Of a DNA stretch of 64,000 nt, positions 7,484 to 60,587 are shown piece by piece. The stretch spans positions 642,917 through 706,916 of the forward strand of contig NZ_KL370891.1 of the NCBI RefSeq assembly GCF_000702325.1. Reading direction: 5' to 3'. The position numbers and the translations under genes were made by a program. Origin of the DNA: Thiomicrorhabdus sp. Milos-T2 (GTDB taxonomy: Bacteria > Pseudomonadota > Gammaproteobacteria > Thiomicrospirales > Thiomicrospiraceae). Under the pieces are notes generated by a model that ran no database searches, was not told the origin of the DNA, and was given only the letters and a program-made list of their open reading frames with translations. Every line of letters starts with the position of its first letter. Position 1 is the first letter of the stretch.

Positions 7484-8323
7484 ATGACGTGGCTCGACTT
7501 TCAAAACCGTTTTCAAAAAATTCGTGATAACAAGGTCTTTGAGCTTTTTGTTATTTTTGTCATTATCTTTTCATCATTGATGATTGGTATCCGTACTTAT
7601 GAGTTACCAGGCCTGGTAGAAACGATTTTAGTCTCTTTAGATTATGCGGTTACGTTGTTTTTTGTGATGGAAATTTCTATCCGTATGGCGGCAGAATCAC
7701 GTTTTAGAGATTTTTTTAAAAAAGGTTGGAATATCTTTGATTTTGTTATTGTGGTGGTTAGCTTAATTCCTTTAGATGACTCTGAATATGCTCTAATCGC
7801 TCGTATGTTACGTTTGTTCCGTGTTATGCGTTTAATCTCCTTTATTCCTGAGCTTAGAGTCTTAGTGAGTGCCTTAATTTCCGCATTGCCTAGAATGGGT
7901 TATGTGGCTTTGTTGATGTTTATCATTTTCTATTTATATGCCGTTATTGGAAATATGCTGTATGCACAGCTTAACCCTGTGCTTTGGGGCGATTTAGGAG
8001 TTTCGTTATTGACGCTGTTTCGTGTTGCCACTTTTGAAGATTGGACTGATGTGATGTACGAGGCAATGACTCTGTATGGTTTAAGTTGGATTTACTTTAT
8101 CAGTTTTATCTTTTTCTCAGCATTTGTCTTTTTAAATATGATGATAGGTATCGTCGTTGAAGTACTTGATGAAGAGCATAAAAAAATGGAAGCGGAAAAC
8201 AACAGAGCGCAAGAAGTAGAAGAGTTAGTTGCTATTCAAAATCATGAACAAAAGATGGAAACAGAAATTGCTTTATTACATCAAAAACTCGATGCATTAT
8301 TAGCGCAGCAATCCAATAAATAA
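7484..8323 (+). CDS. single-domain voltage-gated cation channel
   Basis: Ion-transport-family membrane protein of 279 residues with six predicted spans, comparable to bacterial NaChBac-type channels that assemble as tetramers. The S4 voltage sensor is clear: arginines at 107, 110, 113 and 116, every third residue, in ARMLRLFRVMRLI. The pore loop has TFEDW at residues 183-187 where NaChBac-type sodium channels have TLESW, so ion selectivity cannot be assumed. The C-terminus (from about 225) is a charged helical tail likely to form a coiled-coil bundle. The start at 7484 has AAGG upstream. One dispersed palindrome copy (7606-7617) encodes LPGLV between S1 and S2. Confidence 0.88.
   Translation: MTWLDFQNRFQKIRDNKVFELFVIFVIIFSSLMIGIRTYELPGLVETILVSLDYAVTLFFVMEISIRMAAESRFRDFFKKGWNIFDFVIVVVSLIPLDDSEYALIARMLRLFRVMRLISFIPELRVLVSALISALPRMGYVALLMFIIFYLYAVIGNMLYAQLNPVLWGDLGVSLLTLFRVATFEDWTDVMYEAMTLYGLSWIYFISFIFFSAFVFLNMMIGIVVEVLDEEHKKMEAENNRAQEVEELVAIQNHEQKMETEIALLHQKLDALLAQQSNK
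7606..7617 (+). repeat. dispersed palindrome ACCAGGCCTGGT, genic copy
   Basis: Perfect 12-bp palindrome inside the channel gene, read as PGLV in the S1-S2 loop region. Confidence 0.9.
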
Positions 8324-8330
8324 ATTGTTA

Positions 8331-8378
8331 AGAGATGTTTGTACCGTCGGGTGAGTATCGTCTCGTGCAAAGATCTCT
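8331..8378. mobile_element. remnant of palindromic MITE family (48 bp)
   Basis: The right end TCTCGTGCAAAGATCTCT differs at one base from the end of the full elements at 20.9, 51.3 and 62.3 kb. The left end AGAGATGTTTGTAC is more diverged. The centre is missing, so this looks like an internally deleted or decayed copy. Confidence 0.65.
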
Positions 8379-8391
8379 TAATAACCCAATG

Positions 8392-8403
8392 ACCAGGCCT
8401 GGT
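8392..8403 (+). repeat. dispersed palindrome ACCAGGCCTGGT, intergenic copy
   Basis: Perfect copy between the channel gene and the convergent VIT-type gene; its flanks do not extend the symmetry. Confidence 0.9.
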
Positions 8404-8453
8404 AATGTTTAGTTTGATGGTACTGTTTAAGATGTTGGTAATTTTTAGGCTGA

Positions 8454-9179
8454 TTAACCGGCAACACCAAAAATCATTCCTACCCATGTTGTAATCGCCA
8501 TAGCAATGCTTCCCCATATGATGACACGCATTGCTCCTTTTATTTTGCTTGCTCCTCCTACCCAGGCTGATAATGCTCCTAGAGTACCTAATAGAATTAA
8601 TGAGGATATGGTGATGACGATTCCCATATTTTGTAATGGTAGAAAAATAACTAATATAACGGGAATAATTCCACCCGTAATGAAAGAAACGGCTGAGGCA
8701 AAGGCCGCTTGAATTGGGTTAGCGCTATGAATTTCTGATAAGCCTAATTCATCTCTAAGATGCGCATCGAGAGCATCATGCTCCATAAGTTCATGTGCTA
8801 CTTGGTGGGCAGTTTGTTCGCTTACCCCGCGATTCATATAAATTAGAGCGAGTTCATGCTTTTCTGTTTCCCAGTTGTCTTGCAAAGCCTTTTTTTCAAT
8901 CTCAAGGTCTGCTTCTTCAGTGTCAGATTGAGAACTGACAGAAACATATTCTCCTGCGGCCATTGCCATAGCTCCTGCGGCTAATGCCGCAATGGCAACC
9001 AGTAAAATATGTTCACGGTCAGCGCCAGCCGCAATAACACCTACAATTAAACTCACTACCGAGATAATGCCATCATTAGCACCCAAAACAGCCGCTCTTA
9101 ACCAACCCATGCGATGGCTATAATGCTCTGCAATGAGATGTGTATTTAAATCTTCTGTAGTATTCATTGAGTTTGCCAC
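8454..9179 (-). CDS. VIT1/CCC1-family Fe/Mn transporter
   Basis: Inner-membrane protein of 241 residues resembling the vacuolar-iron-transporter (VIT1/CCC1) family, which moves Fe2+ or Mn2+ out of the cytoplasm. The N-terminal GWLRAAVLGANDGIISVVSL segment and the MAAGEYVSVSSQSDTE segment are family hallmarks; the latter region and the following acidic cytoplasmic helices (about 80-140) carry metal-binding carboxylates. About five membrane spans are visible. Its neighbours give no pathway. Substrate is inferred from the family only. Confidence 0.88.
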   Translation of the reverse strand: MANSMNTTEDLNTHLIAEHYSHRMGWLRAAVLGANDGIISVVSLIVGVIAAGADREHILLVAIAALAAGAMAMAAGEYVSVSSQSDTEEADLEIEKKALQDNWETEKHELALIYMNRGVSEQTAHQVAHELMEHDALDAHLRDELGLSEIHSANPIQAAFASAVSFITGGIIPVILVIFLPLQNMGIVITISSLILLGTLGALSAWVGGASKIKGAMRVIIWGSIAMAITTWVGMIFGVAG

Positions 9180-9240
9180 TCTGTCTTTAGCATTGAGACT
9201 CTTTACAAGAGTCTCACATTAGTTGAAGTATTCTAATAAA

Positions 9241-9765
9241 TTACCAAACCAGTAATTTATAACCCTTTTCTTGAAGCACCATCAAGGCCGCAGCGCCAAC
9301 TTGAGCATATTCGGCAAAAGGACGAATATCAGCATCTGTCCAGCCAATAGTTTTCATGGTGTTACCACAAGCAATCCAGCGAACATTGTAATCTTTAGCA
9401 AAACTTTCAACACGTTGATAGATTAATGGGTCAACTTTACGCATTGGCTTTTTGGCTAAAACATGAATACCGGGTCCAATGGCAACAACGGCAACTTGTA
9501 CATCATCGCCATAAAGTTGAATCATCGCTTGAATAGAGTTAAGAATATGGGTTTGGTACTCTGCATCTGATTTATTAAACATATAAACCACTTTATGCGA
9601 AGCTGGATCCCCCGGGAAACGATCGCTAGATGGACCGTTGACTTCTGGTGTGACTTTTAAGGTATGTTTTGCTGTGGTTGATGTATTTGCCTCTTCGTTG
9701 GCAAAACTGATTGCGCTAGAAAAGATGACACTTAAGCTTAATAGTAGGGTGATGAATAAACGCAT
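9241..9765 (-). CDS. exported DsrE-like protein
   Basis: Precursor of 174 residues with a signal peptide (about 1-22, ending ISFA), followed by a region resembling DsrE/DsrF-type folds: KVVYMFNKSDAEYQ near 60, VAVVAIGPGIHVLA near 100 and WIACGNTMKTIGW near 135 with a single conserved-looking cysteine. Cytoplasmic DsrE proteins take part in sulfur relay; periplasmic relatives are frequent in sulfur oxidisers but their role is not established. The gene stands alone, with a 36-bp MITE remnant just upstream in its likely promoter region. Confidence 0.7.
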   Translation of the reverse strand: MRLFITLLLSLSVIFSSAISFANEEANTSTTAKHTLKVTPEVNGPSSDRFPGDPASHKVVYMFNKSDAEYQTHILNSIQAMIQLYGDDVQVAVVAIGPGIHVLAKKPMRKVDPLIYQRVESFAKDYNVRWIACGNTMKTIGWTDADIRPFAEYAQVGAAALMVLQEKGYKLLVW

Positions 9766-9801
9766 AGGTCTTTCCTTTTACCTTAATAGGTTTTTAACTC
9801 T

Positions 9802-9837
9802 AGAGACCTTTCGCGCCGGTCTCATGCAAAGGTCTCT
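9802..9837. mobile_element. minimal MITE remnant upstream of DsrE-like gene
   Basis: AGAGACCTTT at the left and TGCAAAGGTCTCT at the right match both ends of the full elements, with only about 12 bp between. It is 37 bp from the DsrE-like start codon and could overlap its promoter. Confidence 0.55.
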
Positions 9838-10021
9838 CTAATATTGAAATCTAAATAAACATTTAGTTATTAGTTTATTGTATGTTGATTTATTACATCA
9901 AAACATTAACTTGTAATAAAATTGTTTATATAGCTAATAAGTTAATCTTATTGGTTAATCTTAGGAAGAGATTTTCAGTCCGAGATTTAATCACGTAAAA
10001 AGACTTTAAGGAAGTAAAGAA

Positions 10022-10321
10022 ATGATACAACCACAAATAGAGCAGGCCATTAATAACGAATTTGACGTTCAGTTTATGGAGTTGCTTAATGAAAGCCATA
10101 TGCACTCAGGGCCAGCTCCAGAATCGCATTTTAAATTGACGATTGTCTCTAGTACCTTTGAAGGGTTAAATAAAGTTAAAAGACAACAAGCTGTTTATAA
10201 AGCTTTAGTAGCGTTGATGCCACAATTTCATGCTTTGGCACTTCATACCTATACGCCTAGCGAATGGTTGGAAATAGAACAGAGTATTCCGGCTTCACCA
10301 AAATGTACTGGTGGGCATTAG
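10022..10321 (+). CDS. BolA-family protein
   Basis: Small protein of 99 residues with the BolA fold signature: NESHMHSGPAPESHFKLTIVSS, then a helix GLNKVKRQQAVYKAL and the closing LHTYTPSEW. BolA proteins work with monothiol glutaredoxins in Fe-S handling and affect morphology. It has a ribosome site AAGGAAG. It is transcribed alone, convergent with the apaH-linked membrane gene. Which BolA subgroup it belongs to cannot be told from sequence alone. Confidence 0.88.
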   Translation: MIQPQIEQAINNEFDVQFMELLNESHMHSGPAPESHFKLTIVSSTFEGLNKVKRQQAVYKALVALMPQFHALALHTYTPSEWLEIEQSIPASPKCTGGH

Positions 10322-10334
10322 TTGATTAACAAAC

Positions 10335-10901
10335 TTAAGTTTGTTCTTCGTCGGGAACGTAATCGGGGTCGGTCTCAGGATAGGTTAGATACCAAATATG
10401 ACTAAATTTTTCGGCATCTAGCTTATTTTGTAATAATAGAATGGCTTGAACATATTGCTCAATATAATGGAATTTTCCTTTTCTAACCGATTGATAAAGG
10501 TGGCGATATTTATTGGGCAAAAAGTGCTTAAAGTGCGCGATTAAGCCAAATTCCCCTTCGGTTTCGCCGATACGCTTCATAACCTCTTGACGAGCTTTAA
10601 ATTTAATTGTTCGTTCTTGAGATTCTAAAATTTTACTTACCCAAAAAAGTAACCCTGCCGCTAGTAAGAAGCTAATAACAGGGCGGTCATATAGAAAACT
10701 GCCCAGTAGAGTAACGGTCACCAAAATTAAAGCACTTACGGGAATGGTTAAAATGGATACCCAAATATAGTTGCCTTTAATTTCATCAGCGACTTTATCT
10801 ATATTAAATTGCTGAACATCAACTTCATTAAGACGCTTTAACATCTCCTCGGGAGAAGGCGTGTTTTGTGTAGAATCTTGATTTTGACTGGTATCATCCA
10901 T
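10335..10901 (-). CDS. uncharacterised two-span membrane protein
   Basis: I do not recognise this 188-residue protein. It has a polar, Gln/Ser-rich N-terminus (1-45), two adjacent hydrophobic spans (about 46-95, including VSILTIPVSALILVTVTLLG and VISFLLAAGLLFWV), and a basic then acidic cytoplasmic domain ending YPETDPDYVPDEEQ. It starts 6 bp after apaH ends, so it is probably the last gene of the lptD-surA-pdxA-rsmA-apaH strand. Context suggests envelope biology, nothing more. Confidence 0.75.
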   Translation of the reverse strand: MDDTSQNQDSTQNTPSPEEMLKRLNEVDVQQFNIDKVADEIKGNYIWVSILTIPVSALILVTVTLLGSFLYDRPVISFLLAAGLLFWVSKILESQERTIKFKARQEVMKRIGETEGEFGLIAHFKHFLPNKYRHLYQSVRKGKFHYIEQYVQAILLLQNKLDAEKFSHIWYLTYPETDPDYVPDEEQT

Positions 10902-10907
10902 TTTGAT

Positions 10908-11765
10908 TTATAACGACTTTTTCTTTTTAAGTTTAGGTTTACACTGTTGTTCACAATCAATTGTAAAACGCTGTTTTGAATCTAATGCATAAGCGGTCAT
11001 TTTGCCACCCCATAGGCATCCCGTGTCGGTTGAATGAATATGATAAGCATCTATTGCACCAAGCGTTGACCAATGCCCAAAAAAAATCTCATAATCTTTG
11101 TTACGACGCTTGGGAAAAACAAACCAGGGTTGATACTTTGAATCAGAGTCTTTTGGCGCATTTTTTAGCTTAAATTCAAGTTTTCCGTTTGCAGTACAAA
11201 AACGCATTCTTGCGAAAGCATTCACGATATAGCGCAGACGATCATCACCTGCTAGGCTGTTATCCCATTCTCGAGGTTCTGAACCAAACAGTTTCTTGGC
11301 AATAAAATCTTGCCAGTTAGGTTGTGCTAACTGATTATGAACCTCTTGAGCGTAATTTCTAGCTTCAGAAATTGACCATTGCGGTGGAATGCCTGCATGT
11401 ACCATCACGGCATGATAAAAGGAGTGGGTCACCATAAGAGGTTGGAGGCGCAACCAATCCATTAATTCATCGACATCATCCGCTTCAAGAATATCTCTTA
11501 AGGTATCTGATTTTGAGGTAAATTTATCTAGGCCTGAATAGGCGGCTAGCAAGTGAAAGTCATGATTACCTAAAACCATATCTGCTTTACCTTGTTCACA
11601 AAGTTGTTTAACAAAACGTAAACAAGCCAGTGATTTTGGACCACGATTAACAATATCTCCTACAAACCATAAATGATCAGAGTCCGGTTGATAGTTAATG
11701 TGTTTTAGCAAGGCTTGCAGTTCATCGTAGCAGCCCTGCAAGTCTCCAATAGCGTAGGTTGTCAT
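10908..11765 (-). CDS. apaH: symmetrical diadenosine tetraphosphatase ApaH
   Basis: Cytoplasmic metallophosphatase that splits Ap4A into two ADP. The 285-residue protein has the ordered motifs of the family: GDLQGCYDEL (residues 7-16), GDIVNRGPKSL (about 36-46) and GNHD (about 66-69), plus HAGIPPQW. Length matches E. coli ApaH. It follows rsmA by 36 bp on the minus strand. The apaG gene often found between rsmA and apaH is absent here. The basic tail KPKLKKKK is a small extension. Confidence 0.95.
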   Translation of the reverse strand: MTTYAIGDLQGCYDELQALLKHINYQPDSDHLWFVGDIVNRGPKSLACLRFVKQLCEQGKADMVLGNHDFHLLAAYSGLDKFTSKSDTLRDILEADDVDELMDWLRLQPLMVTHSFYHAVMVHAGIPPQWSISEARNYAQEVHNQLAQPNWQDFIAKKLFGSEPREWDNSLAGDDRLRYIVNAFARMRFCTANGKLEFKLKNAPKDSDSKYQPWFVFPKRRNKDYEIFFGHWSTLGAIDAYHIHSTDTGCLWGGKMTAYALDSKQRFTIDCEQQCKPKLKKKKSL

Positions 11766-11801
11766 TTGGTAAATGGTCTCTAAATATTAGTGGGTCGATT
11801 G

Positions 11802-12620: not shown

Positions 12621-12629
12621 GATTGATTC

Positions 12630-13639: not shown

Positions 13640-13655
13640 CTACCAGGCCTGGTAG
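13640..13655 (+). repeat. dispersed palindrome, intergenic copy (16-bp symmetry)
   Basis: ACCAGGCCTGGT at 13642-13653, extended by CT and AG to 16 bp. It lies 26 bp upstream of the pdxA start codon. Next to it, GTTTCAATTAG is tandemly duplicated (13702-13723). Confidence 0.88.
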
Positions 13656-15157: not shown

Positions 15158-17530
15158 CTAAAAATTGAGTTTTTCGGTTAAAGTTTGTTTAAATTTTGTG
15201 CCAGAAGAGCTCAAACCTTTAAGCTCAAATTGCATTTGAATTCCGTCATTATACAAGCCATTTTCAAGTTGTGTACGTTCTGCAACAAATTCTGCTGCCC
15301 AACAGCAACTGTCGTAGCGTAAACCAAGTTGCATTTCATAAAAATCGTTTTCATTTAGGTCATAACTGCTGTAGATGCCTAGGTTCCAATCGGAATTGAT
15401 TTGTGTGTAACCACCTAATGAAAGCATTTCTGTTTCAGATGATGTGCCTTGGTCGTACAAAGTATGGTTAATTAAAGCGATATTGTTATTTTTTTGCCAT
15501 TTTAATCTTGTATTAGCATTTGTTAAATGTTGGTCATCGCTATCTAGTTGAGCGGTTGAGGCAAAATACCATTCATTGAACGCAAACCCTAATTTAACAA
15601 AAATATCTGAAACCTTTTCGGTTTCTGGAATGTCGTCTAAGGTGACATTGCGGTCTTCTAAATAAAGAATCTGACCGATTCCCATTTCTGCTATTTGTTT
15701 ACCAACGGGACTCAGTAATCTGCTGGTCAACGCGGTGGATATCTGTCGAGTATCGCCAATCAGATCAGCGCCTGTAAAGCGGTTAAGGGCAAAGAGATTA
15801 CTAAAGTCTAAACTGCGTTCGGCAGTATCAAATAATGTAATGTTGGATTGATCTTCATAAGGCGTATATAGGTACTGAATTTCGGGTTCTAAGGTTTGAA
15901 TATAATTCTGTTTATTAAATTCAATATTACGTTCAAAGGTTAATCCACTTTTAACCGCTATTTGCGGAACGAAGCGAGTGATATTTTTATCTTGAGGTTC
16001 ATTATTAAAGCCATCATCTCGCATTGAATATTGTGTTTGATTTGCGACTAAGGTTGTTTTTAAATAGCTGTAACTGTTTTGTATTTGATAGCTTAAGGTA
16101 GGAGAGGTGGTAAAACGTAAGCCTTCATATTTGTTTGTGACAGCAACGGGGGTTACAAAATCGGTCACCGTGGCATTAATATCAAAATCAAAATTACCAA
16201 CTTGTTTGAGGTAACTAGCACTAATTTCGGGGCGCTTTTCATAGTTTATTGAAGCGTTCTGTAAACGTAAATAACTTAGCAGCTGAACATAGGCACTAAA
16301 ATTTTGATTTTTATAATTAAGTTGTGCCTTACGCTGTTTTTGGGTTGCCGTTTTAAGGTTGGTTTGCACGGGGATATCGGCAAAAAAACTCTCGTCAGAA
16401 ACTTCATCCCAATCGACATTACTAGTAAAACCATGGCTCCAGTTTTGGTTAGCTTCAATGCTTGCACGCCAACGTTCAGAACGTTTATCTCCATAAATTA
16501 AGTTGCCACTGGAATCACTAGAAACGATTCCTTCTGAAGCCGTTAATTGATCTTGTAATCCGGTTAAGGTTATTTTGGCCCCATGGGTAATGTTATTGGT
16601 TTTAGCGATGTATCTAAATTCATTTTCTAACGCTAGGCCTCGCTGAGTCATGGGAATAGCCGTTAGCGTATCATCCATATTGGGGGCGATATTAAAGTAA
16701 TAAGGTATTTTGGCATATTGGTTAGAGGAATCTTGGGTAAGTGATTTATAACTGCCGAACTCAGGAAACAGTAATCCACTTGCTCGATCATCTAACGGAT
16801 AATCAAAATAAGGGGTATAGAAAATCGGGACATCTTTAAAGTAAAGAGTGGTGTTTTTACCAACGACACGACGGGTTTCATTATTAACAGTCAATTCATC
16901 AAAGGTTAAGTCCCAATCTAATGATTTGTCACTGTTGACTTTACAGGTGGTGAGTGTGGCCTTAGCTAAAGCGGCTAGTTTGGCTTTTTGATCAATTTTA
17001 ATGCTTTTTGAGTGTCCATGAGTGCGACTGGGTAGCATTTGATATTGGGTTTGTTTTAATTTGGCGGTTTCGTTTTTATTATTTATGACTGCCGTTTTAG
17101 CGGTAATCGTTATTTCTGGCTGATGAAGTTCAACATTGCCAGAAAAAATAGCGGTTTGTTTCTGCTTGTTTAAAACAGCTTGATCACTTAACACTACCAG
17201 GCCTGGTTGTTTTAAATTGGCGTTACCTTGTAATAAATATTCGTCTTTACTTGGCTGTAATAAACTGTCTGCTTCAATATGTTGAGGGGGATTAACCTGT
17301 TTTGGATCTTTTGGCGTAATGCTTTGAGGCTCTGCAATAAGTTGCGGGGCACAAGGATTAGTGCTCATTGAATTTTTGGCAGCCTGGGACAAAGCTTGGG
17401 TTGAAGGTTGGGTCGAAGGTTGAATCGTCTCTTGTGACCAGGCCTGGTTAGGCAAAAAGCTAAATAAACACAGTAGCGTATTAAATGTGTTGAAGCGAAT
17501 TGTAGAGGTGACTGTGTTTTTATTCTTCAT
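15158..17530 (-). CDS. lptD: LPS-assembly outer-membrane protein LptD
   Basis: Beta-barrel that inserts lipopolysaccharide into the outer membrane with LptE. The 790-residue precursor has a signal peptide (about 1-32, ending NQAWS), a Ser/Thr/Gln-rich linker with a repeated QPST motif, an OstA-type jellyroll domain (about 85-230: PGLVVLSDQAVLNKQKQTAIFSG) and a long barrel. Cysteines near 195 (TTCKV) and the adjacent pair near 742 (SCCWAAEF) fit the family's inter-domain disulfides. Two dispersed palindromes sit inside it, one coding the QAW at the signal-peptide end. It is divergent from amgK. Confidence 0.95.
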   Translation of the reverse strand: MKNKNTVTSTIRFNTFNTLLCLFSFLPNQAWSQETIQPSTQPSTQALSQAAKNSMSTNPCAPQLIAEPQSITPKDPKQVNPPQHIEADSLLQPSKDEYLLQGNANLKQPGLVVLSDQAVLNKQKQTAIFSGNVELHQPEITITAKTAVINNKNETAKLKQTQYQMLPSRTHGHSKSIKIDQKAKLAALAKATLTTCKVNSDKSLDWDLTFDELTVNNETRRVVGKNTTLYFKDVPIFYTPYFDYPLDDRASGLLFPEFGSYKSLTQDSSNQYAKIPYYFNIAPNMDDTLTAIPMTQRGLALENEFRYIAKTNNITHGAKITLTGLQDQLTASEGIVSSDSSGNLIYGDKRSERWRASIEANQNWSHGFTSNVDWDEVSDESFFADIPVQTNLKTATQKQRKAQLNYKNQNFSAYVQLLSYLRLQNASINYEKRPEISASYLKQVGNFDFDINATVTDFVTPVAVTNKYEGLRFTTSPTLSYQIQNSYSYLKTTLVANQTQYSMRDDGFNNEPQDKNITRFVPQIAVKSGLTFERNIEFNKQNYIQTLEPEIQYLYTPYEDQSNITLFDTAERSLDFSNLFALNRFTGADLIGDTRQISTALTSRLLSPVGKQIAEMGIGQILYLEDRNVTLDDIPETEKVSDIFVKLGFAFNEWYFASTAQLDSDDQHLTNANTRLKWQKNNNIALINHTLYDQGTSSETEMLSLGGYTQINSDWNLGIYSSYDLNENDFYEMQLGLRYDSCCWAAEFVAERTQLENGLYNDGIQMQFELKGLSSSGTKFKQTLTEKLNF
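17196..17207 (+). repeat. dispersed palindrome, genic copy in lptD
   Basis: Perfect ACCAGGCCTGGT inside lptD, read as PGLV (from KQPGLVVL) at the start of the jellyroll domain. Confidence 0.9.
17437..17448 (+). repeat. dispersed palindrome, genic copy in LptD signal peptide
   Basis: Perfect ACCAGGCCTGGT, read on the minus strand as NQAWS at the predicted signal-peptide cleavage region of LptD. Confidence 0.9.
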
Positions 17531-18747: not shown

Positions 18748-19482
18748 GTGAGCCAAACCTCTAATAAAACATCATCAATTAAAGCCATGATTCTTGCTGC
18801 AGGAAGAGGCAAACGTTTACGCCCCATAACTGATACCACTCCAAAACCCTTAGTTCCTGTTTGTGGGAAGCCCTTAATTGAATATCATATTGAAAAGTTA
18901 GCCAAAGCAGGGGTCAATGAAATTATCATTAACCATGCTTGGTTGGGAGAAAAAATTGAAGCTCAGCTCGGTGATGGGGCTCGCTGGAATGTAAAAATTT
19001 ATTATTCCGCAGAACCAGAAGGTGGGCTAGAAACTGCAGGGGGCATAATTAATGCCTTGCCATTACTGGGAGACAAACCCTTTTTGGTGATTAATGGTGA
19101 TGTTTACTGTGAAATGGAATTTGATTCTTTGGTTAATAAAGCAAAGAGCTTAGCCGAAATGAATGGTCAAATATCTACAGAAAACATGGGGCATTTAGTT
19201 TTAGTGCCTAACCCAGCACATAACTTAAAAGGTGATTTTGGTCTGGATGCTCAAAATAAAGTTGAAGCTCAAGGTGATTATACTTTTGCAGGCATCAGCA
19301 TCTTAAGACCCGAGCTTTTTAACGGGATGGAAGTCGATTTTGTTCCGCTTGCCCCAATTTTGCGTCAAGCCATGCAAAATAAGAAGATAAGCGGGCAACT
19401 TGAATATGGTTTATGGTCAGATGTGGGTACCTTAGAACGTTTGCAAGAAACTGAACGCTTAATAACTAAAGGTCACTCATAG
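18748..19482 (+). CDS. murU: N-acetylmuramate 1-phosphate uridylyltransferase MurU
   Basis: Sugar-phosphate nucleotidyltransferase of 244 residues. The nucleotide-binding MILAAGRGKRLRPITDTTPKPLVPVCGKP is split across residues 14-42, and the metal-binding VINGDVYCEM and WSDVGTLERL are in the right order. It likely forms UDP-MurNAc from MurNAc-1-phosphate made by AmgK, 49 bp upstream. The start is GTG at 18748; the first residues are SQTSNKTSS before the conserved core. Alternative: another glucose/mannose-1-phosphate transferase, but context favours MurU. Confidence 0.87.
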   Translation: MSQTSNKTSSIKAMILAAGRGKRLRPITDTTPKPLVPVCGKPLIEYHIEKLAKAGVNEIIINHAWLGEKIEAQLGDGARWNVKIYYSAEPEGGLETAGGIINALPLLGDKPFLVINGDVYCEMEFDSLVNKAKSLAEMNGQISTENMGHLVLVPNPAHNLKGDFGLDAQNKVEAQGDYTFAGISILRPELFNGMEVDFVPLAPILRQAMQNKKISGQLEYGLWSDVGTLERLQETERLITKGHS

Positions 19483-20866: not shown

Positions 20867-21108
20867 AGAGACCTTTGCACGAGATAGGTACGAAAGAAAA
20901 ATGAGTGAAAATTTGCCTGATTCTCGACTTACCCCTTCGGGCGTCGAGTTCTTCGTTTGCGGCGGAAAACGCAGGGAATAGCTAGCTATTCGCAAGTTGT
21001 CGCCCAACGGAAGTGCCCTTGGAGTACAACAAAAATCAGGTGAATTTTTACCCTCAAGGGGCACCTAGAACCATTTTTACTCGTGCATACTCTCGTGCAA
21101 AGGTCTCA
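20867..21108. mobile_element. MITE-like palindromic element, copy A (242 bp)
   Basis: Ends AGAGACCTTTGCACGAGA and TCTCGTGCAAAGGTCTCA are inverted repeats. The centre GAATAGCTAGCTATTC (20976-20991) is shared with copies C and D. TTG directly flanks both sides (20864-20866 and 21109-21111), consistent with a 3-bp target duplication. This copy carries extra internal segments with their own small hairpin (CTCGAC...GTCGAG), which makes it longer than C and D. No transposase is encoded. Insertion is 3 bp after the rluF stop codon. It fills most of the 373-bp gap before the HicA-like gene. Confidence 0.85.
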
Positions 21109-22236: not shown

Positions 22237-22248
22237 ACCAGGCCTGGT
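22237..22248 (+). repeat. dispersed palindrome, intergenic copy
   Basis: Perfect ACCAGGCCTGGT in the gap between the divergent csp and yaaA genes, about 150 bp before yaaA. Confidence 0.9.
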
Positions 22249-24183: not shown

Positions 24184-24207
24184 AAAGCTACCAGGCCTGG
24201 TAGCTTT
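24184..24207. terminator. palindrome-based stem-loop between yfeX and hslO
   Basis: The dispersed palindrome ACCAGGCCTGGT (24190-24201) is extended on both sides by AAAAGCT/AGCTTT to a perfect 24-bp inverted repeat. It lies between two convergent genes with A and T tracts at the edges, so it can serve as a two-way terminator. Confidence 0.75.
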
Positions 24208-26345: not shown

Positions 26346-26972
26346 TTATTGCGCTGCAGCAGTAATACTTTGACTGAGTATATGGGCAATAGCAAGACCC
26401 GCTTGATCAGTTGTAGGGCAGTTTTTAGTACTCACTAAATGGGCGAGTTGAGTCATTTTCATACCTTGTAAACCGCAGGGATTCACCTTACTGAAAGGGG
26501 ATAAATTCATGTTTACGTTTAACGCTAAGCCATGATAACTTTTTTGTTTGCGGATTTTTAAGCCTAATGAGGCGATTTTATGACCGTTAACGTAAACGCC
26601 TGGAGCATCTGAACGTGCTTTAGAGTCAATACCCAATTGAGTTAGATAGGCAATAATACTGTTTTCAAGTAGCGTGACTAAAGCACGAACACCAAGTTTA
26701 TTACGCTTTAAATCAATTAAAACATAGACCACTGTTTGGCCGGGACCATGATAGGTGATTTGTCCACCACGATCGGTTTGTACAATTGGAATATCAGTCT
26801 GTTGGAGTAGATGTTCGGCTTTGCCGTTTAAACCTTGGGTAAATACCGGGGGGTGTTCAACCACCCATAATTCATCAGGGGTGGCGTCAGTGCGATTATC
26901 TGTAAAGGTCTGCATTGCTTCCCAACAGGCCTGGTAGTCTTTTAGGCCAAGACTTTTTATGATAATTGACAT
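26346..26972 (-). CDS. lipB: octanoyltransferase LipB
   Basis: Transfers octanoate from acyl-carrier protein to lipoyl domains. The 208-residue protein has [39 protein letters not shown] with the catalytic Lys, and the catalytic Cys in [11 protein letters not shown]. It lies between ybeD and lipA. A near-match to the dispersed palindrome (26926-26934) codes DYQACWEAM near the N-terminus. Confidence 0.97.
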
Positions 26973-28259: not shown

Positions 28260-28310
28260 TTTGTGTCCTGTAATGACAATGCCATGCTAAAAATAAACAT
28301 GGCATAAAAC

Positions 28311-28374
28311 AGTTAAACAGTTAAACAGTTAAACAGTTAAACAGTTAAACAGTTAAACAGTTAAACAGTTAAAA
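28311..28374. repeat. eight-unit octamer tandem array (AGTTAAAC)n
   Basis: Seven perfect and one imperfect copy of AGTTAAAC fill the dacA-dat gap, from 52 bp upstream of the dat start to 6 bp short of the dacA stop. Adjacent to it is a stem-loop ATGCCATG...CATGGCAT (28279-28305). Perfect short tandem arrays are prone to slippage, so copy number may vary between cells. Confidence 0.92.
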
Positions 28375-28380
28375 AAGTTA

Positions 28381-29577
28381 TTAGCCAAGAAGAGAGTTAA
28401 TGAATAACTTAAATTGGTCAATTAATTTTTTAAAGAAAGAACCTTCTTCAACTGGGTCTAAAGCAACTAATGTTTTATCAGCAATAGTTTCATCACCTAA
28501 GGTGATATGCAAGGTACCTAATGTTACTCCTTCTTCAATAGGGGCTTTAATTTCTGGGTTAACAGAACTTTCTATTTTGATATTTTTATATTGCCCGCGT
28601 GGAATAGTGATGTATAAATCATCGGTTAAACCTACACCAATTAAATCACGTGTACCTTCCCAAACTTTTACATCATTTAAACGCTGTTTAGCGGCATAAA
28701 GTTTATGTGTTTCAAAAAAACGAAAACCGTAATTAAGAAGTTTTTGACTCTCTTGTACTCGCATTTTAGAACTTGATGTTCCAAGAACAATGGTGATTAA
28801 ACGGTCGTTTTCGCGCTTAGCAGAAGACACTAGGCAATAACCTGCACTTTGGGTATGGCCTGTTTTTAAACCATCTACCGTTGGGTCTTGCCAAAGAAGT
28901 TTGTTGCGATTGTATTGAGTAATGCCATTAAAGGTAAATTTCTTCTGTGAATACCATTTGTACTCTTCAGGGAATTGAGTGATTAACGCTTTGGTGAGTA
29001 ATGCTAAATCATAAGCGGTAGTGTAATGGTCAGCGTCAGGAAGGCCTGTGGCATTAACAAAGTGAGTATGTTCCATTCCTAAACTTTTTGCATATTTGTT
29101 CATCAGTTCTGCAAAAACTTCTTCACTTCCTGCAATATGTTCAGCTAACGCCACACTAGCATCATTACCAGATTGAATAACCATGCCTTTAATTAAATCT
29201 TTAACAGAGACTTGTTTACCAACTTCAATAAACATTTTAGAGCCTGGCATTTTCCAGGCTTTTTTACTAATCGTTACCATGTCATCTAAATGAATATTGT
29301 CATTAGCCAGCTCATTAATGACCACAAATCCCGTCATGATTTTGGTTAAACTTGCGGGTTCAACTCTTAAGTGAGAATCTTTTTCTGCTAGTGTAGAACC
29401 ACTGTTAAAATCAAGCACAAGATAGGCTTTAGCGGCGATGTTTGGCGCAGAAGGAATAACATGTGGTGTTGCAATGGTAGGGGTGGGAAGTGCGTCAGCT
29501 GAAGCTGTTTGTACCATGGTTATTAAGCTGAAAAAGCTTAGCGTTAAAAGCGTAATTGTATTTTTTAGAGTAAGCAT
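28381..29577 (-). CDS. dacA: D-alanyl-D-alanine carboxypeptidase DacA (PBP5/6)
   Basis: Periplasmic, membrane-anchored enzyme that trims the terminal D-Ala from peptidoglycan pentapeptides. Catalytic motifs: SLTK (in EPASLTKIM), SGN (in IQSGNDASVALAEH) and KTG (in DGLKTGHTQSAGY). A signal peptide ends near SASA. A C-terminal beta domain is followed by an amphipathic helix (FFKKLIDQFKLFINSLLG) that anchors to the membrane. The start at 29577 gives a normal signal peptide and 398 residues; an ATG 26 codons upstream would bury it. It is part of the rod-shape gene series. Confidence 0.95.
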   Translation of the reverse strand: MLTLKNTITLLTLSFFSLITMVQTASADALPTPTIATPHVIPSAPNIAAKAYLVLDFNSGSTLAEKDSHLRVEPASLTKIMTGFVVINELANDNIHLDDMVTISKKAWKMPGSKMFIEVGKQVSVKDLIKGMVIQSGNDASVALAEHIAGSEEVFAELMNKYAKSLGMEHTHFVNATGLPDADHYTTAYDLALLTKALITQFPEEYKWYSQKKFTFNGITQYNRNKLLWQDPTVDGLKTGHTQSAGYCLVSSAKRENDRLITIVLGTSSSKMRVQESQKLLNYGFRFFETHKLYAAKQRLNDVKVWEGTRDLIGVGLTDDLYITIPRGQYKNIKIESSVNPEIKAPIEEGVTLGTLHITLGDETIADKTLVALDPVEEGSFFKKLIDQFKLFINSLLG

Positions 29578-29745: not shown

Positions 29746-29757
29746 ACCAGGCCTGGT
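29746..29757 (+). repeat. dispersed palindrome, intergenic copy
   Basis: Perfect ACCAGGCCTGGT in the rodA-dacA gap, 20 bp after the rodA stop (minus-strand sense). Confidence 0.9.
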
Positions 29758-39124: not shown

Positions 39125-39156
39125 TTTTAAGGTTACCAGGCCTGGTAATCTTAAAA
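39125..39156. terminator. palindrome-based stem-loop between gatB and htpX
   Basis: ACCAGGCCTGGT (39135-39146) is extended to a 32-bp inverted repeat with a single mismatch (a G-U pair in RNA) and T/A-rich edges. It is a plausible terminator for gatCAB. Confidence 0.65.
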
Positions 39157-43597: not shown

Positions 43598-44596
43598 ATG
43601 AAGCGTCGCGATTTATTAAAATCGGCATTGGGTTTATCAGCTAGTTTAGTTGGTATGTCTGCTATAAATCCATTGTATGCAAACGATGATTTGGAAGGTT
43701 TTCGTGGGCCAGAAGTACCTGATGTTAATGCAATCAAGGTAAGTGACCGAAGTTATACCATCCCTGCATTAGGCTCTGTTCCAACGCCCGATAATTTTGG
43801 TATGTTCTCTAATCCAGGTTTTATTGTGACTTCTGAAGGGGTTGTTGTTGTTGATACAGGAAGCTCAGTTCAGATAGGTGAAATGGTTCTTCGCCAAATT
43901 AAGAAGGTGACTAATAAACCGGTTATTAAAGTCATTAACACGCATTTTCATGGCGATCATTGGTTAGGAAACCACGCATTTGTAGCGGCTTATCCAAATG
44001 TGGATATATACTCTCATCAACTTTGTATTGATAACTTGAAAGCAGGTGGAGATCAGTTTTGGTTTGATTTTATGCAAACTAATACCAATAATAAAATTAC
44101 TGGTACGGTGGTGAGCTTACCCAATAAAACTCTAAAAGGTGGTGAGGCGATTAAGCTGGGTGACACAACGCTTAAGATTCATCACTTTGGAAAAATGCAT
44201 ACCGATTCTGACCTTGCTGTTCAAGTTGTAGAAGATAGCTCTTTATATACTGGGGATATGGTTATGCGCCGTGTTGCCAATATGGAAGATGGTTCTTATC
44301 TGGGTACCATAAATGGTTTGCAGAAGATGATTGATATGAAACTAAATCATTATATTCCTATGCACGGAGCACATGATAGCGTGAAGCTGCTTGAGGAAGG
44401 TAAAGAGTTTATGGAAACTATCTATAACCAAACTGCCAAGTATTATGATGAAGGGTTATCTGATTTTGAGATGAAACCTAAAATTATGGCAGAACCTTTT
44501 ATGAAAAATGTGGCAAGTCAATGGCCTGGTTATGAATCAGCAATTGGTAAGTTTATTGTGGTTGCCATTGCTGAGGTAGAAAATAATCTTTTCTAA
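43598..44596 (+). CDS. Tat-exported metallo-beta-lactamase-fold hydrolase
   Basis: Protein of 332 residues with a twin-arginine-like signal (MKRRDLLKSALGLSASL, cleavage near LYA) and an MBL-fold domain. The zinc motif is THFHGDHWLGNHAF (about 128-141), with further ligands in GKMHTDSDLAVQ (position H) and IPMHGAHDS. Related proteins include SoxH and quinoprotein-linked hydrolases, whose substrates are unclear. A sulfur-oxidation role is possible in this kind of organism but not shown by neighbours. The ribosome site is TTAGGAG. Confidence 0.82.
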   Translation: MKRRDLLKSALGLSASLVGMSAINPLYANDDLEGFRGPEVPDVNAIKVSDRSYTIPALGSVPTPDNFGMFSNPGFIVTSEGVVVVDTGSSVQIGEMVLRQIKKVTNKPVIKVINTHFHGDHWLGNHAFVAAYPNVDIYSHQLCIDNLKAGGDQFWFDFMQTNTNNKITGTVVSLPNKTLKGGEAIKLGDTTLKIHHFGKMHTDSDLAVQVVEDSSLYTGDMVMRRVANMEDGSYLGTINGLQKMIDMKLNHYIPMHGAHDSVKLLEEGKEFMETIYNQTAKYYDEGLSDFEMKPKIMAEPFMKNVASQWPGYESAIGKFIVVAIAEVENNLF

Positions 44597-44700: not shown

Positions 44701-44724
44701 AAAACAACCAGGCCTGGTTGTTTT
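44701..44724. repeat. dispersed palindrome extended to 24 bp
   Basis: ACCAGGCCTGGT (44707-44718) flanked by AAAACA and TGTTTT gives a perfect 24-bp inverted repeat, a possible second terminator after the metallo-hydrolase gene. Confidence 0.9.
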
Positions 44725-51292: not shown

Positions 51293-51453
51293 AGAGACCT
51301 TTGCACGAGATAGGTGCAAAAGAAAAATGAGGAAAAATTTACCTTATTGCGGCGGAAAACGCAGTGAATAGCTAGCTATTCGAAAGTTTTTCAACAAAAA
51401 TAAGGTAAATTTTAACCATTTTTACTTGTACATACTCTCGTGCAAAGGTCTCT
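51293..51453. mobile_element. MITE-like palindromic element, copy C (161 bp)
   Basis: The whole element is one imperfect inverted repeat. Ends AGAGACCTTTGCACGAGA and TCTCGTGCAAAGGTCTCT are perfect inverses. The centre GAATAGCTAGCTATTC is at 51366-51381. AAT flanks both ends (51290-51292 and 51454-51456). It has the same length as copy D and lies in the opposite orientation. No coding capacity. It lies in the 403-bp gap between guaA and tadA, whose remaining sequence shows only a terminator. Confidence 0.88.
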
Positions 51454-54912: not shown

Positions 54913-54928
54913 TGCCTCTATAGCAATG

Positions 54929-54953
54929 AAGGGGGGATATAAATTCCCCCTTT
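54929..54953 (+). terminator. stem-loop after cheA
   Basis: AAGGGGG, loop, CCCCCTT followed by TTATTTT. Moderate terminator between cheA and the CheZ-like gene. Confidence 0.75.
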
Positions 54954-55011
54954 ATTTTAAAAGCTTAAAGTATCGTAAGCTTATAATAAATTTCTAAATT
55001 TAGAGGTCAAT

Positions 55012-55593: not shown

Positions 55594-55661
55594 TTTGAGA
55601 CCTTTTTAAGAAGATTTAAAGAATTTATAAGCAAGGCTTTAATTCTCTATTTTCATCTTAG

Positions 55662-55684
55662 AACCCGCAATTGCGGGTTTTTTT
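55662..55684 (+). terminator. terminator after CheZ-like gene
   Basis: AACCCGCAATTGCGGGTTTTTTT: a perfect 8-bp stem and T run. Confidence 0.92.
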
Positions 55685-55822
55685 ATGCCTACAGATTGAG
55701 TTTTAAATGAAATATCTTATTGTTTTATTTACCGATAAAAATAATTGAATTCTATTTATAAGTATTATTAATAATAATGGTAACTCCAAGCAATCTTAGT
55801 CATTAAAAAACATGAGGCAACA

Positions 55823-56764: not shown

Positions 56765-56785
56765 ACAGCTTCTTATTTTCTCTTT

Positions 56786-56815
56786 AAAAAAGCACAGAAT
56801 TTTCTGTGCTTTTTT
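56786..56815 (+). terminator. terminator after DUF302-like gene
   Basis: AAAAAAGCACAGAA, loop TT, TTCTGTGCTTTTTT; perfect stem with T run. Confidence 0.92.
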
Positions 56816-56923
56816 GTTTTAAAGGCTTGAAAAGGTTTTTTTAGGCCTTATTAATCTTGCACATTTATAATTTATTTAATTTACTTAATCAAATTCTTAA
56901 ACACCACATTAGGAGATTTATTA

Positions 56924-58819
56924 ATGAGTGCAACAGAGACTCACGCGTTTCAAACCGAAGTAAACCAACTCTTAAAGTTGATGATTCACGCCCTATATTC
57001 AAACAAAGAAATTTTTGTAAGAGAGCTTGTTTCTAACGCATCGGATGCCTTAGATAAGCTGCGTTTTGAAGCGGTTTCTAATGATGCTTTAACCGAAGGT
57101 GAAGAAGAGCTAGCCATTCAGTTAGAATTCAATAAAGAAGCCCGCACCATTACGATAACCGATAACGGTATTGGTATGACTCGTGATGAAGTGATTGCAA
57201 ACATTGGTACCATTGCCAATTCAGGGACCAAAAAATTCTTAGAGTCTATGACTGGTGATCAAGCAAAAGATTCACACCTAATAGGACAGTTTGGTGTAGG
57301 TTTTTACTCTTCATTTATTGTTGCCGATGAGGTTGAATTAACCACTCGTAAAGCGGGTGAGTCAGCTTCTGAAGGAACTAAATGGATATCTAAAGGTGAA
57401 GGCGAATTTACTTTAGAAACTGTTGAAAAAGCTCAAAAAGGTACAGTCATCACGCTTCATTTAAAAGAAGAAATGGATGAGTTCTTAGATGAAAATCGCC
57501 TTAAAACGATTGTAACTACCTATTCTGACCACATTAACTTCCCAATTAAAATGGAAAAAACGGAGTGGGATGAAGAAGCTAAAGAATCAAAAGCAACCGG
57601 TGAGTTAGAGCAAGTTAACAAAGCAACGGCAATTTGGACTCAACCAAAATCTGAACTATCGGATGAAGATTACAACAACTTCTATCAGACCATTTCTCAT
57701 GACTTTAATGAGCCATTAGCTCATATGCATAACAAAGTAGAAGGTACGCTTGAATATACATCATTGCTATACCTACCTAAAAATGCCCCATTTGATTTAT
57801 ATGATCGTGAACGTCGTTATGGTTTAAAACTTTACGTTAAACGTGTATTTATCATGGATGACGCTGAACACCTAATGCCAACCTATTTACGTTTTGTGCG
57901 TGGGGTAATTGATTCAGCTGACTTACCATTAAATGTATCGCGAGAAATCTTACAGAGCAACAAAGTGGTTGATAAGATTCGTGCGGCCTCGGTTAAACGT
58001 GTACTTGACCAGCTAGCTAAGTTTGCTAAAGCTGAAGATCAAACTGAATACAACACTTTCTGGGACCAGTTTGGTCAAGTAATGAAAGAAGGTGTAGTAG
58101 AAGATTTTGCCAATAAAGACAAAATTGCTAAATTACTGCGTTTTGCATCAACCTACGAAGAAGCATCAAGTGAGCAACGTACCTCTTTAGAGAGTTATGT
58201 TGATCGTATGCAAGAAGGTCAAGAAGCGATTTACTTTATTGTTGCAGACACCCATGCAGCAGCTAAAGGTAGCCCACACTTAGAGATGTTCCGTAAAAAA
58301 GGCATTGAAGTGTTGTTGTTATCTGACCGTATTGATGAATGGTTAGTTTCACACTTAACTGAGTTTGAAGGTAAACAGCTTAAATCGATTACTTCTGCAG
58401 ACTTAAAAGAGTTTGAAGACGAAGCAGATAAAGAAATTTCTGATGATGAAAAACAAGCTCGAGAAGCCTTAACGGAAAAAGTTAAAAAAGTAATCGAAGA
58501 TAAGGTTTCAGATGTACGTATCACTCATCGTTTAACGGATTCTCCAGCATGTGTAGTGAGTGCAGAAGGCGATATGTCAGCGCATATGGCTCGTATGATG
58601 GAACAAATGGGACAAGCGATTCCAAAGCAAAATCCTGTTTTAGAATTAAACCCTGATCATGCGTTAGTGAAAAAACTTGAAGGCATTGAAGATGACGCTA
58701 AGTTAACAGAATGGTCTCTATTCTTATTAGAGCAAGCTCAGTTAGCCGAAGGTGATCAACTTGAAGAACCTGCAGCGTTTATTAAACGTATGAATGCATT
58801 GTTAAGTGAAGCTATGTAA
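56924..58819 (+). CDS. htpG: molecular chaperone HtpG (Hsp90)
   Basis: Cytoplasmic Hsp90 of 631 residues. The N-terminal ATPase shows [33 protein letters not shown] and [11 protein letters not shown]. The middle domain has the catalytic-loop Arg region in [11 protein letters not shown], and the C-terminal dimerisation domain ends with [12 protein letters not shown]. The ribosome site TTAGGAG precedes the ATG. No heat-shock promoter could be defined with confidence upstream. It ends before the 34-bp palindrome-based terminator. Confidence 0.97.
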
Positions 58820-58864
58820 GTTTTTACAGCGCTTTACATCACTAAACTTAGGTTTAGTGTAAAT

Positions 58865-58898
58865 AAACCCAATTAACCAGGCCTGGTTAATTGGGTTT
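58865..58898. terminator. 34-bp perfect palindrome terminator containing ACCAGGCCTGGT
   Basis: ACCAGGCCTGGT at 58876-58887 is the apex of a perfect inverted repeat that extends through AAACCCAATTA and its complement, followed by six T. It separates the convergent htpG and fbpB. Confidence 0.88.
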
Positions 58899-58979
58899 TT
58901 TGTTTATAGCGTTTGAATTTAAAAAGTCTGTTTGATATCTCTTCTAAAACGGCATCTGAATATAGTTACAGCAATTGAT

Positions 58980-60587
58980 TTAACGTCTTCTGCGTTGCGA
59001 AACCCATAGTGCTAAAATTCCCAGTAATACTAACAATAAAGCGGGCAATGCCGCACCTTCATAGTTTCCTTCTAGGCTCAATTCATAAGTGTAAATAGAC
59101 AAAGCACTCCAGTCGAAAGGACGTAACATATAAGTAGCTGGCAACTCTTTCATGACCTCTAAAAAAATCAAACCTGATGAAGCTATCAGGCCAGGTTTAA
59201 GTAGTGGTAAGTAAATTTTTGTAGAAAGGCGTAAGGGTGATGCGCCCAGACTTTTAGCCGATTGAATCATCTGTGGTGAAATTTGTCTTAGCCCATTGCT
59301 CACAGGCCCTTGCCCCAAAATAAAGAAGCGTAAGCTTAAGACTAAAATTAATACCCAGATACTTTGAGAAAGCCAGCCTGAAGTGAGTCCAAACTGATGC
59401 TCTAATCCAATTAAAATCCCTAATACACCAATAGCAATTACATTTCCTGGTAAGGCGTAGCCCATTAAAGTGAGTTGAGAAAAACGCTGAATCCATCGTC
59501 CAGCTTGTAAATCTCTTTTGAGTAATTCAAATGTCACCGCGACACTTAAAATGACGACCATAGCACCCAGACCAAGTCCTAAAGTATTGATGGTTAAAGA
59601 CCAGTATTTAGAGTCAGTAAAACTTTGGTCAGAGATAATAGCCCAGTAAAGAAGTTGTATAAATGGTAGCAAGAAACTAATGCTAAAAATGGTAAACACT
59701 AATACAAAAATTGACCAGGCCTGGTAACCTTTTAAGGTTGTTGGCGTGATTTTTTGCCATTTATTCAGTACACGGGGGCGAGACACTTTTACCCAATGGT
59801 CGACCATAAATAGAGTCCATGCGACTAATAAAATGAGTGATGCTAATTGCATGGCGAGTTTAAGTGAGTAAAAATCTTGCCATGCGCTGACAATAGCCGT
59901 TGTTAAAGTTGGAGTGTTAAAAATAGAAACGGTTCCATAGTCGGCTAATGTTTCCATCATGACTAACATCATGCCTAAAAATAGCGATGGAAAAGCTAAT
60001 GGAAATTGAATACGCCAAAAACGTCTCCAAGGCCCAGCACCCAATGCAGCAGCTTGAATATCCATCTCTGGGTAAGTACGTTCAAAATTGGGTTTCAGTA
60101 CCCCGTAAACGTAAGGGAAGAACATGAGGCTTAATACAATTACTAAACTAGTGTAGCCTTGTCGAGCATCCCAGGTCATGTTAACCCCCCAAGCCCTCAA
60201 TTGCGTCTGTATTAGCCCTGAATAGTCGAGCCAGCCTAAAAAAACAAACGCCATGACATAAGCAGGAATAGCCAGTGGTAGCAACAAAGCCCAGTTAAGC
60301 CATCTATGTCCTGGAAAACGGTAATGACTCATTATATAAGCGAGTAAAGTACCAATTAAACCAGCACCTAAAACTACCAAAAGTACTAGGCTAAGGGTGT
60401 TGATTAGTAGTTTTGGAAGTAAATGTTCCGCAATATGATTCCAATTTGAATCGATGCCTAAGAACCAAGAAATTATTAAAGGTAGTTGTGGCAAAACGCC
60501 TAAGGCAATTAAACCCCAGATGCCAATTTTTTTTACTTTAGGAGAGGATAGAAAACTGTAGTTCAAGATATTACTCGTACCCTGCAA
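58980..60587 (-). CDS. fbpB: ferric iron ABC transporter permease FbpB
   Basis: Fused double permease of 535 residues with about twelve spans, as in FbpB/SfuB-type iron(III) importers. Each half has an EAA-loop: MDIQAAALGAGPWRRFWRI (near 174) and MIQSAKSLGASPLRLSTKI (near 440), which contact the ATPase. Its start overlaps fbpA by 17 bp on the minus strand. A dispersed palindrome at 59714-59725 encodes YQAW near the middle, between the two halves. Confidence 0.92.
   Translation of the reverse strand: MQGTSNILNYSFLSSPKVKKIGIWGLIALGVLPQLPLIISWFLGIDSNWNHIAEHLLPKLLINTLSLVLLVVLGAGLIGTLLAYIMSHYRFPGHRWLNWALLLPLAIPAYVMAFVFLGWLDYSGLIQTQLRAWGVNMTWDARQGYTSLVIVLSLMFFPYVYGVLKPNFERTYPEMDIQAAALGAGPWRRFWRIQFPLAFPSLFLGMMLVMMETLADYGTVSIFNTPTLTTAIVSAWQDFYSLKLAMQLASLILLVAWTLFMVDHWVKVSRPRVLNKWQKITPTTLKGYQAWSIFVLVFTIFSISFLLPFIQLLYWAIISDQSFTDSKYWSLTINTLGLGLGAMVVILSVAVTFELLKRDLQAGRWIQRFSQLTLMGYALPGNVIAIGVLGILIGLEHQFGLTSGWLSQSIWVLILVLSLRFFILGQGPVSNGLRQISPQMIQSAKSLGASPLRLSTKIYLPLLKPGLIASSGLIFLEVMKELPATYMLRPFDWSALSIYTYELSLEGNYEGAALPALLLVLLGILALWVSQRRRR
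59714..59725 (+). repeat. dispersed palindrome, genic copy in fbpB
   Basis: Perfect ACCAGGCCTGGT, read on the minus strand as YQAWS in the linker between the two permease halves. Confidence 0.9.

Follow-up and report, generated by a model that had tools for sequence, protein, structure and literature searches.

An iterated palindrome in the window and the genome

The DNA analyzed here, referred to below as the window, is a 64-kb stretch of the genome of Thiomicrorhabdus sp. Milos-T2 (C1:642917-706916) that includes, among others, the genes pdxA, surA, lptD, yaaA, hslO, rodA, dacA, gatB, htpX and htpG. Among named records, those nearest to its pdxA belong to Thiomicrospira and Thiomicrorhabdus. 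Across this stretch, the 12-bp palindrome ACCAGGCCTGGT (hereafter, the word) is present in 12 perfect copies, all at the starts given by the initial annotation of the window, compared to none in each of 100 dinucleotide shuffles. Places within two mismatches of the word number 21, against a shuffle mean of 0.95 and a maximum of 5. All seven near-copies listed in the initial annotation exist, those at 133 and 26924 one base off the word and the other five two bases off, but five starts had to be shifted by 1-3 bases (133, 23405, 25557, 26924 and 50829 replace 135, 23407, 25560, 26926 and 50830); two-mismatch places at 18932 and 59185 had been missed. By simple open reading frame (ORF) calls, 8 of the 12 perfect copies are intergenic, as originally reported.

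The word is a genome-wide signature, as had been proposed from the window alone. The whole genome (2,655,367 bases in two contigs) contains 498 copies, compared to 0 copies of the reversed control word, and relatives are rich in it as well, with 181-400 copies in three other genera (see below), so that the enrichment reaches beyond the window. In 404 kb of this genome (17 sampled 20-kb stretches and the window), perfect copies number 79, one-mismatch copies 30 and two-mismatch copies 24; in the same sequence, 89 control palindromes with the same half-composition average 0.011 perfect copies, and 20 sampled control palindromes average 0 perfect, 0.15 one-mismatch and 5.4 two-mismatch copies. 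None of the 17 sampled stretches is empty: each holds 2-8 sites, and the counts are slightly under-dispersed (mean 3.94, variance 1.93).

Conservation reaches beyond the 12 bp to a palindrome of about 22 bp, AANYTACCAGGCCTGGTARNTT, which is alike in genic and intergenic sites. Position -2 of the perfect sites is C or T in 95 percent, and the preferences at -2, -4 and -5 are also present in the 41 genic sites alone and thus are not a by-product of terminators. Among the 30 one-mismatch copies, 24 carry the change within the two outermost positions of either end, and the commonest variant is C2-to-G (11 copies). When words with up to two mismatches are masked, AGGCCT is found 66 times, with 62.0 expected, and GGCC 618 times, with 893.9 expected; therefore, the enriched object is the long word rather than a core of 4-6 bp.

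Placement relative to genes was assessed using simple ORF-based gene calls in sampled stretches of 12 word-bearing genomes (relatives are denoted by G numbers; in G017, sites were found with ten-base half-anchored patterns). Among the 304 sites, the density per 10 kb rises from 1.30 in genes (163 sites) to 3.8 in divergent (13 sites), 10.6 in tandem (83 sites) and 17.9 in convergent gaps (45 sites), the difference between convergent and divergent gaps being highly significant (p = 7e-8). In tandem gaps, 53 of the 83 sites lie closer to the upstream stop codon (p = 0.015). The order is unchanged in the Milos-T2 genome alone (1.17, 2.4, 7.1 and 13.0, respectively), where 41 of the 79 sites are inside genes and all three frames are used (19, 17 and 5 sites).

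The window also contains, at 28299-28386, a tandem array of an 8-bp unit, AAACAGTT, with a spacing of 8 and seven to eight overlapping copies.

Table 1. Perfect and one-mismatch copies of the word in the window, with their genomic context
Feature	Coordinates	Strand	Context
Perfect word	7606..7617	.	Within ORF 7484-8323 (LPGLV frame); exact in G021, one base off in G015, G009, G030
Perfect word	8392..8403	.	Convergent gap; gap also occupied in G015, G030
Perfect word	13642..13653	.	pdxA-surA gap
Perfect word	17196..17207	.	Within lptD (QPGLV)
Perfect word	17437..17448	.	Within lptD, N-terminal (NQAWS); exact at matching codons in G015, G009, G030
Perfect word	22237..22248	.	Intergenic, upstream of yaaA
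Perfect word	24190..24201	.	Convergent gap, Dyp peroxidase / hslO; perfect palindrome for a further 6 bp on each side
Perfect word	29746..29757	.	Tandem gap rodA-dacA
Perfect word	39135..39146	.	Tandem gap gatB-htpX
Perfect word	44707..44718	.	Intergenic, downstream of ORF 43598-44596; palindrome for a further 6 bp on each side
Perfect word	58876..58887	.	Tip of terminator-like hairpin, convergent gap after htpG; -20.3 kcal/mol, z -4.94
Perfect word	59714..59725	.	Within ORF 58980-60587 (YQAWS)
One-mismatch copy AGCAGGCCTGGT	133..144	.	
One-mismatch copy AACAGGCCTGGT	26924..26935	.	

Spellings of the word in Thiomicrorhabdus and related genera

Across 32 genomes of the genus, that of Milos-T2 included, exact counts of ACCAGGCCTGGT lie between 0 and 718. 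Among other genera of the family Thiomicrospiraceae, the word has 289 (G033), 181 (G035) and 400 (G036) copies and is absent from G032, G034 and G331; none of the class genomes outside the family (365 of 369) contains more than 5 copies. Other spellings, or dialects, were sought by counting k-mers in 40 kb from each of 17 relatives, followed by counts in whole genomes. Several of the relatives appear to be named strains, namely, Thiomicrorhabdus sp. ZW0627 (G017), T. cannonii HH3 (G020), T. chilensis DSM 12352 (G025), T. marina 6S2-11 (G013) and T. heinhorstiae HH1 (G014).

Three further spellings were found. The ACAGGCCTGT dialect is represented by 224 copies in G017, 154 in G005, 119 in G025 and 113 in G002, and the second base is nearly free in the words of G005 and G025. 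The ACCGGCCGGT dialect reaches 1,025 copies in G023, with at most 15 in each of the remaining genomes of the genus. The third spelling, AACAGGCCGGGT, is asymmetric and has 482 copies in G020 (242 and 240 by strand) and 275 in G004, with at most 3 in the 22 other genus genomes searched (G024-G031 were not among these). The motif derived from 172 kb of G020 is AWAYTSAACAGGCCGGGT, in which the old extended half-site persists on the left, and the right half is altered and has no conserved flank, so that the reader of the word would need no palindrome in this species. A mixture of two spellings, with 38 and 46 copies, was detected in G008. In the palindromic dialects, comparison with shuffled halves gave no clear signal of hidden asymmetry (the nearest case was G005, with a gain of 30.3 against a null maximum of 31.4). 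In G018, which has the ACCAGGCCTGGT dialect, three word-like copies follow one another at 13-bp intervals near L169:3244-3270 (flipped coordinates), and AACAGGCCTGTT is among them.

No iterated word is enriched in the 40 kb sampled from each of seven species with genomes 99-100 percent complete (G003, G013, G014, G019, G024, G026 and G031), and near-words in seven word-less genomes (40-88 kb each) are not in excess over control words, that is, decayed words were not detected. Seven other low-count genomes (G001, G011, G012, G016, G022, G028 and G029) were assessed by counts only.

In a tree of six concatenated proteins from 21 genomes, in which two nodes have support of 25 and 50, ACCAGGCCTGGT is the spelling of the outgroup genera as well as of two groups within the ingroup. 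Species with ACAGGCCTGT cluster together, and the asymmetric G020 falls inside this cluster as the sister of G005. G023 is placed beside the word-less G013, G019 and G024; the word-less G014 and G031 group together, and the word-less G003 adjoins the group of Milos-T2. The four spellings, each high-copy in its own species, are largely congruent with the tree. The simplest reading of this distribution would be an ancestral palindrome that was re-spelled three times and lost two or more times within the genus.

Paired, orthologous and missing sites

In G020, eight pairs of words 22-26 bp apart, all in plus-then-minus orientation, are present among the 100 sites listed, and four more such pairs are among the sites listed for G004. 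With a shorter pattern, CAGGCCGG, 172 kb of G020 yielded 8 pairs within 60 bp, compared to 2.12 expected. Two of the facing pairs in G020 are predicted to form terminator-like hairpins of -37.4 and -31.2 kcal/mol (z -11.3 and -9.5), and a run of T follows each of them. In Milos-T2, one pair 25 bp apart was found among the whole-genome sites, and single words occupy the tips of strong hairpins in a few gaps (-20.3, z -4.9 at 58876; another at -25.8, z -7.1). For a genic control site, the predicted folding is no stronger than in its shuffles (z 0.18), and 27 of the 38 Milos-T2 gap sites have two or fewer extra pairs, that is, short arms.

The orthologous pdxA-lptD locus was compared in 20 relatives. 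The pdxA-surA gap contains the Milos-T2-type word in G009, G015 and G018, the word of the G020 dialect in G020, and degenerate forms in G005, G017 and G025; in G023, a word lies within the end of pdxA adjoining this gap. These differences suggest that a given site in this gap may have been rewritten in place. Within lptD, the codons CAA CCA GGC CTG GTN form the exact word in Milos-T2, G015, G009, G027 and G018, and also in G033 and G036 from other genera, with G030 one base off. The synonymous positions within this word are fixed across genera, whereas flanking synonymous sites vary. In G021 and G025, the residues are kept and the word is not; G003 and G017 differ in one residue and have no word.

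Long word-free stretches were found as well. G036, a genome with 400 copies, has 83 kb without a perfect word (209,038-292,354). Four stretches covering most of this gap (80 kb, G036:C1:209001-289000, L292-L295) have G+C of 0.45-0.49, compared to 0.53-0.55 in three others, and their sole perfect word is at the very start. Judged by eye, the ORFs of these stretches include transposase-like, polysaccharide and secretion genes. The operon of the type II secretion system (T2SS) of this genome also lies in the gap. This gap is probably acquired DNA, and counts in favor of the uptake reading discussed below. Another stretch without the word, 20 kb in G020 (L296), has a G+C of 0.45, which by itself proves little. 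An apparent 49-kb word-free gap in G020 was discarded: minus-strand sites beyond about 486 kb seem to be missing from the site list, and one of the two stretches read there holds the word, but this gap was minor support and the likelihood of an uptake role is unchanged; the spacing figure for G020 is unreliable for the same reason.

The word as a candidate DNA uptake signal

We consider it fairly probable, by analogy with known systems, that the word is a new DNA uptake (self-recognition) signal, ancestrally palindromic and diversified into dialects. Of the roles offered by the initial annotation, uptake is the one that best fits the dialects, the placement, and the inverted pairs in one dialect; the function itself remains a proposal. 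Under this scenario, the signal would have arisen in Thiomicrospiraceae independently of those of Neisseriaceae and Pasteurellaceae. The ~22-bp site would be bound by a receptor on the cell surface, part of the type IV pilus or competence apparatus, and word-carrying DNA would enter via ComEA and ComEC and then recombine. Word-bearing DNA would be taken up more often, so that words would build up and be retained at any place where the sequence tolerates them. A shift in receptor specificity would lead to rewriting of the sites, giving rise to dialects, and loss of specificity to decay of the words. Copy number, extended motif, dialects on the tree, placement, partial reuse of gaps, hairpin-forming pairs in one dialect and the presence of competence genes are observed directly; the receptor, the uptake preference, the drive and the rewriting in place are what we infer.

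The DNA uptake sequence (DUS) of Neisseriaceae, recognized by ComP, offers a comparison: eight dialects have been described, with inverted pairs at terminators and a largely congruent ComP tree, and five relatives have no obvious DUS (PMC3630211). The word shares with DUS a length of about 12 bp, high copy number, dialects distributed in line with the tree, terminator-associated inverted pairs, and relatives that lack it; it differs in that the ancestral word is palindromic, the copies number hundreds to about 1,000 rather than thousands, and no ComP or other receptor was identified among the pilins compared. The uptake signal sequence (USS) of Pasteurellaceae is likewise a genome-wide word with dialects, and the A/T flank on one side of the G020 word is reminiscent of the AT-rich flank of USS. 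A minor pilin has been proposed as the USS receptor, with ComN/PpdA predicted (PMC12616744). The word, in contrast, has an unrelated sequence and is symmetric in most species, and no ppdA-like cluster was recognized. Given DUS-like dialects, lineage limits, gene-end placement, hairpin pairs and synonymous retention, together with a palindromic form, the word is likened here to an uptake word and not classed as DUS or USS.

Several observations weigh against an uptake signal. Uptake-enhancing sequences are described as non-palindromic and evenly spaced (PMC1939737), whereas the word is palindromic in Milos-T2 and in most dialects, asymmetric only in G020 and G004, and is spaced no more evenly than expected at random. 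Milos-T2 shows no enrichment of close pairs (0 in 418 kb, compared to 0.99 expected), and only 5 of the 8 close CAGGCCGG pairs in G020 are in facing orientation. No word occupies the pdxA-surA gap in G021, G027, G030, G033, G035, G036 and six word-less species, so that its conservation is partial, and the word of G023 is absent at the lptD codon. The competence genes do not discriminate either. Milos-T2 encodes ComEC/Rec2 (354.8 bits, against a cut-off of 190.05), but a ComEC-family match is present in 21 of 22 genomes, word-less ones included, and missing only in the word-less G031; a ComEA-like HHH_3 match is found in 36 of 40 genomes. Being present nearly everywhere, these genes were rejected as uninformative trackers of the word. 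Finally, among some pilins compared in some genomes, none tracks the word as a receptor candidate would.

Individual pilin candidates were set aside for different reasons. FimT/GspH gave marginal matches in only 2 of 22 genomes, both word-less. A cluster of four prepilins, considered as a possible competence cluster, was dropped because it is a T2SS operon in Milos-T2; of the 12 genomes searched, all but the word-less G003 show a T2SS-type cluster of small prepilins. A solitary minor prepilin of about 172-186 amino acids (L280:4473-4991, and also in L281, L282, L283 and L284), in which the C-terminal half is strongly conserved and two cysteines are invariant, is encoded next to hslV in G003 and G020; well conserved as it is, it was dropped as a possible DNA receptor given its presence in the word-less G003. 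Separately, the ComEC-bearing open frame of G020 (L277, G020:C1:88273-89076) comprises 594 amino acids, compared to 834-957 in the 20 other matching genomes.

The serious rival to the uptake reading is a chromosome-binding protein. The word would be the site of an abundant, probably dimeric, chromosome-organizing or nucleoid-occlusion protein, and promoters would be avoided because the bound protein would disturb transcription. Although we regard this as unlikely, it would account for a dimer-like palindrome of about 22 bp, or two helical turns, for the sites in all 17 sampled stretches (2-8 in each), and for the divergent gaps having the fewest sites per base among the gap classes. The sites of SlmA, Noc and MatP are also dimer-like palindromes spread along the chromosome. 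They number tens, however, whereas the word occurs in hundreds of copies, turns over fast, is not enriched in several near-complete species of the genus, and has in G020 and G004 an asymmetric dialect with inverted hairpin pairs. Chromosome organization, also put forward in the initial annotation, is weakened by the absence of the word from those species.

The remaining alternatives appear far less probable. The third role suggested initially, a modification or repair bias, would have a DNA methylase and methyl-directed repair, or restriction, make and maintain the word, as envisaged for the highly iterated palindrome HIP1, and is improbable. The word does resemble HIP1 in being an iterated palindrome with a GC-rich center and in varying at its ends (24 of the 30 one-mismatch copies differ at the outer two positions), but at 12-22 bp, compared to 8-10 bp for HIP1, it is far longer than the usual target of a type II methylase, its core alone is unenriched (AGGCCT at expectation and GGCC below it), and the AACAGGCCGGGT dialect is non-palindromic. 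Alternate spellings in some relatives are another shared feature, reported for cyanobacteria (PMC4390886). Methylase searches, confined to the C5 family, produced matches over the cut-off in 14 of 40 genomes, patchily distributed: none in the word-rich G000, G015, G021, G010, G005, G017, G020 and G023, and some in the word-less G003, G013 and G024. A C5 methylase was therefore discarded as the maker of the word, and the HIP1-like explanation fits poorly, since enrichment is limited to the long word and the C5 methylases do not follow it.

An equally improbable explanation is a termination or gene-end element that guards against read-through between converging genes. Such an element would match the high density in convergent gaps, the bias of tandem-gap sites toward the upstream stop (53 of 83, p = 0.015), and the strong hairpins followed by T at some Milos-T2 sites; about half of the sites are nonetheless genic (41 of 79 in Milos-T2 and 163 of 304 across the 12 genomes), a genic site folds like its shuffles (z 0.18), and most gap sites (27 of 38) are short-armed. 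That the word marks the regulon of a promoter-binding regulator is very hard to credit, even with a dimer-like palindrome: the sites number hundreds, half are genic, and divergent gaps contain only 13 of 304 (3.8 per 10 kb, compared to 17.9 in convergent gaps). The least credible proposal is that the words are ends or cores of a mobile repeat, either a repetitive extragenic palindrome (REP) or a miniature inverted-repeat transposable element (MITE). Many dispersed copies would be expected of such a repeat, but conservation drops away within some 5 bp of the 12-mer, copies inside genes are in frame and common to several genera, and the MITE-like family of Milos-T2 is separate, with the word in 0 of 27 elements. 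These elements have inverted ends GAGACCTTTGCACGAGA, which resemble those of the IS5 family, and are mostly 155 or 180 bp long; the 27 were found in the 404 kb of Milos-T2 sequence, with three in the window (20870-21105, 51296-51450 and 62335-62489).

Among the papers listed in the literature searched, with subscription papers and preprints outside its scope, we found no description of the word, no occurrence of the 12-mer and nothing linking Thiomicrospira with an uptake sequence and a palindrome, or Thiomicrorhabdus with natural transformation; articles joining Thiomicrospira, competence and type IV pili concern, by their titles, other organisms. Most known uptake words come from Neisseriaceae and Pasteurellaceae, which makes it hard to say why they arise. 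More tentatively than the uptake role itself, the word may represent a further, independently evolved family of uptake words in free-living, sulfur-oxidizing chemolithoautotrophs, with a palindromic ancestor that is readable from either strand, would therefore probably be bound by a symmetric receptor, and was re-spelled three times in one genus, once asymmetrically, and lost two or more times. Should the word be the site of a chromosomal protein instead, it would be an unusually fast-changing one. If it is an uptake word, one could trace within a single genus how a genetic self-recognition code arises, drifts and dies out. A case that combines a symmetric ancestor with an asymmetric descendant, a variant of altered spacing and relatives lacking any word would allow tests of how receptor specificity changes together with hundreds of sites, and of whether uptake words isolate species.

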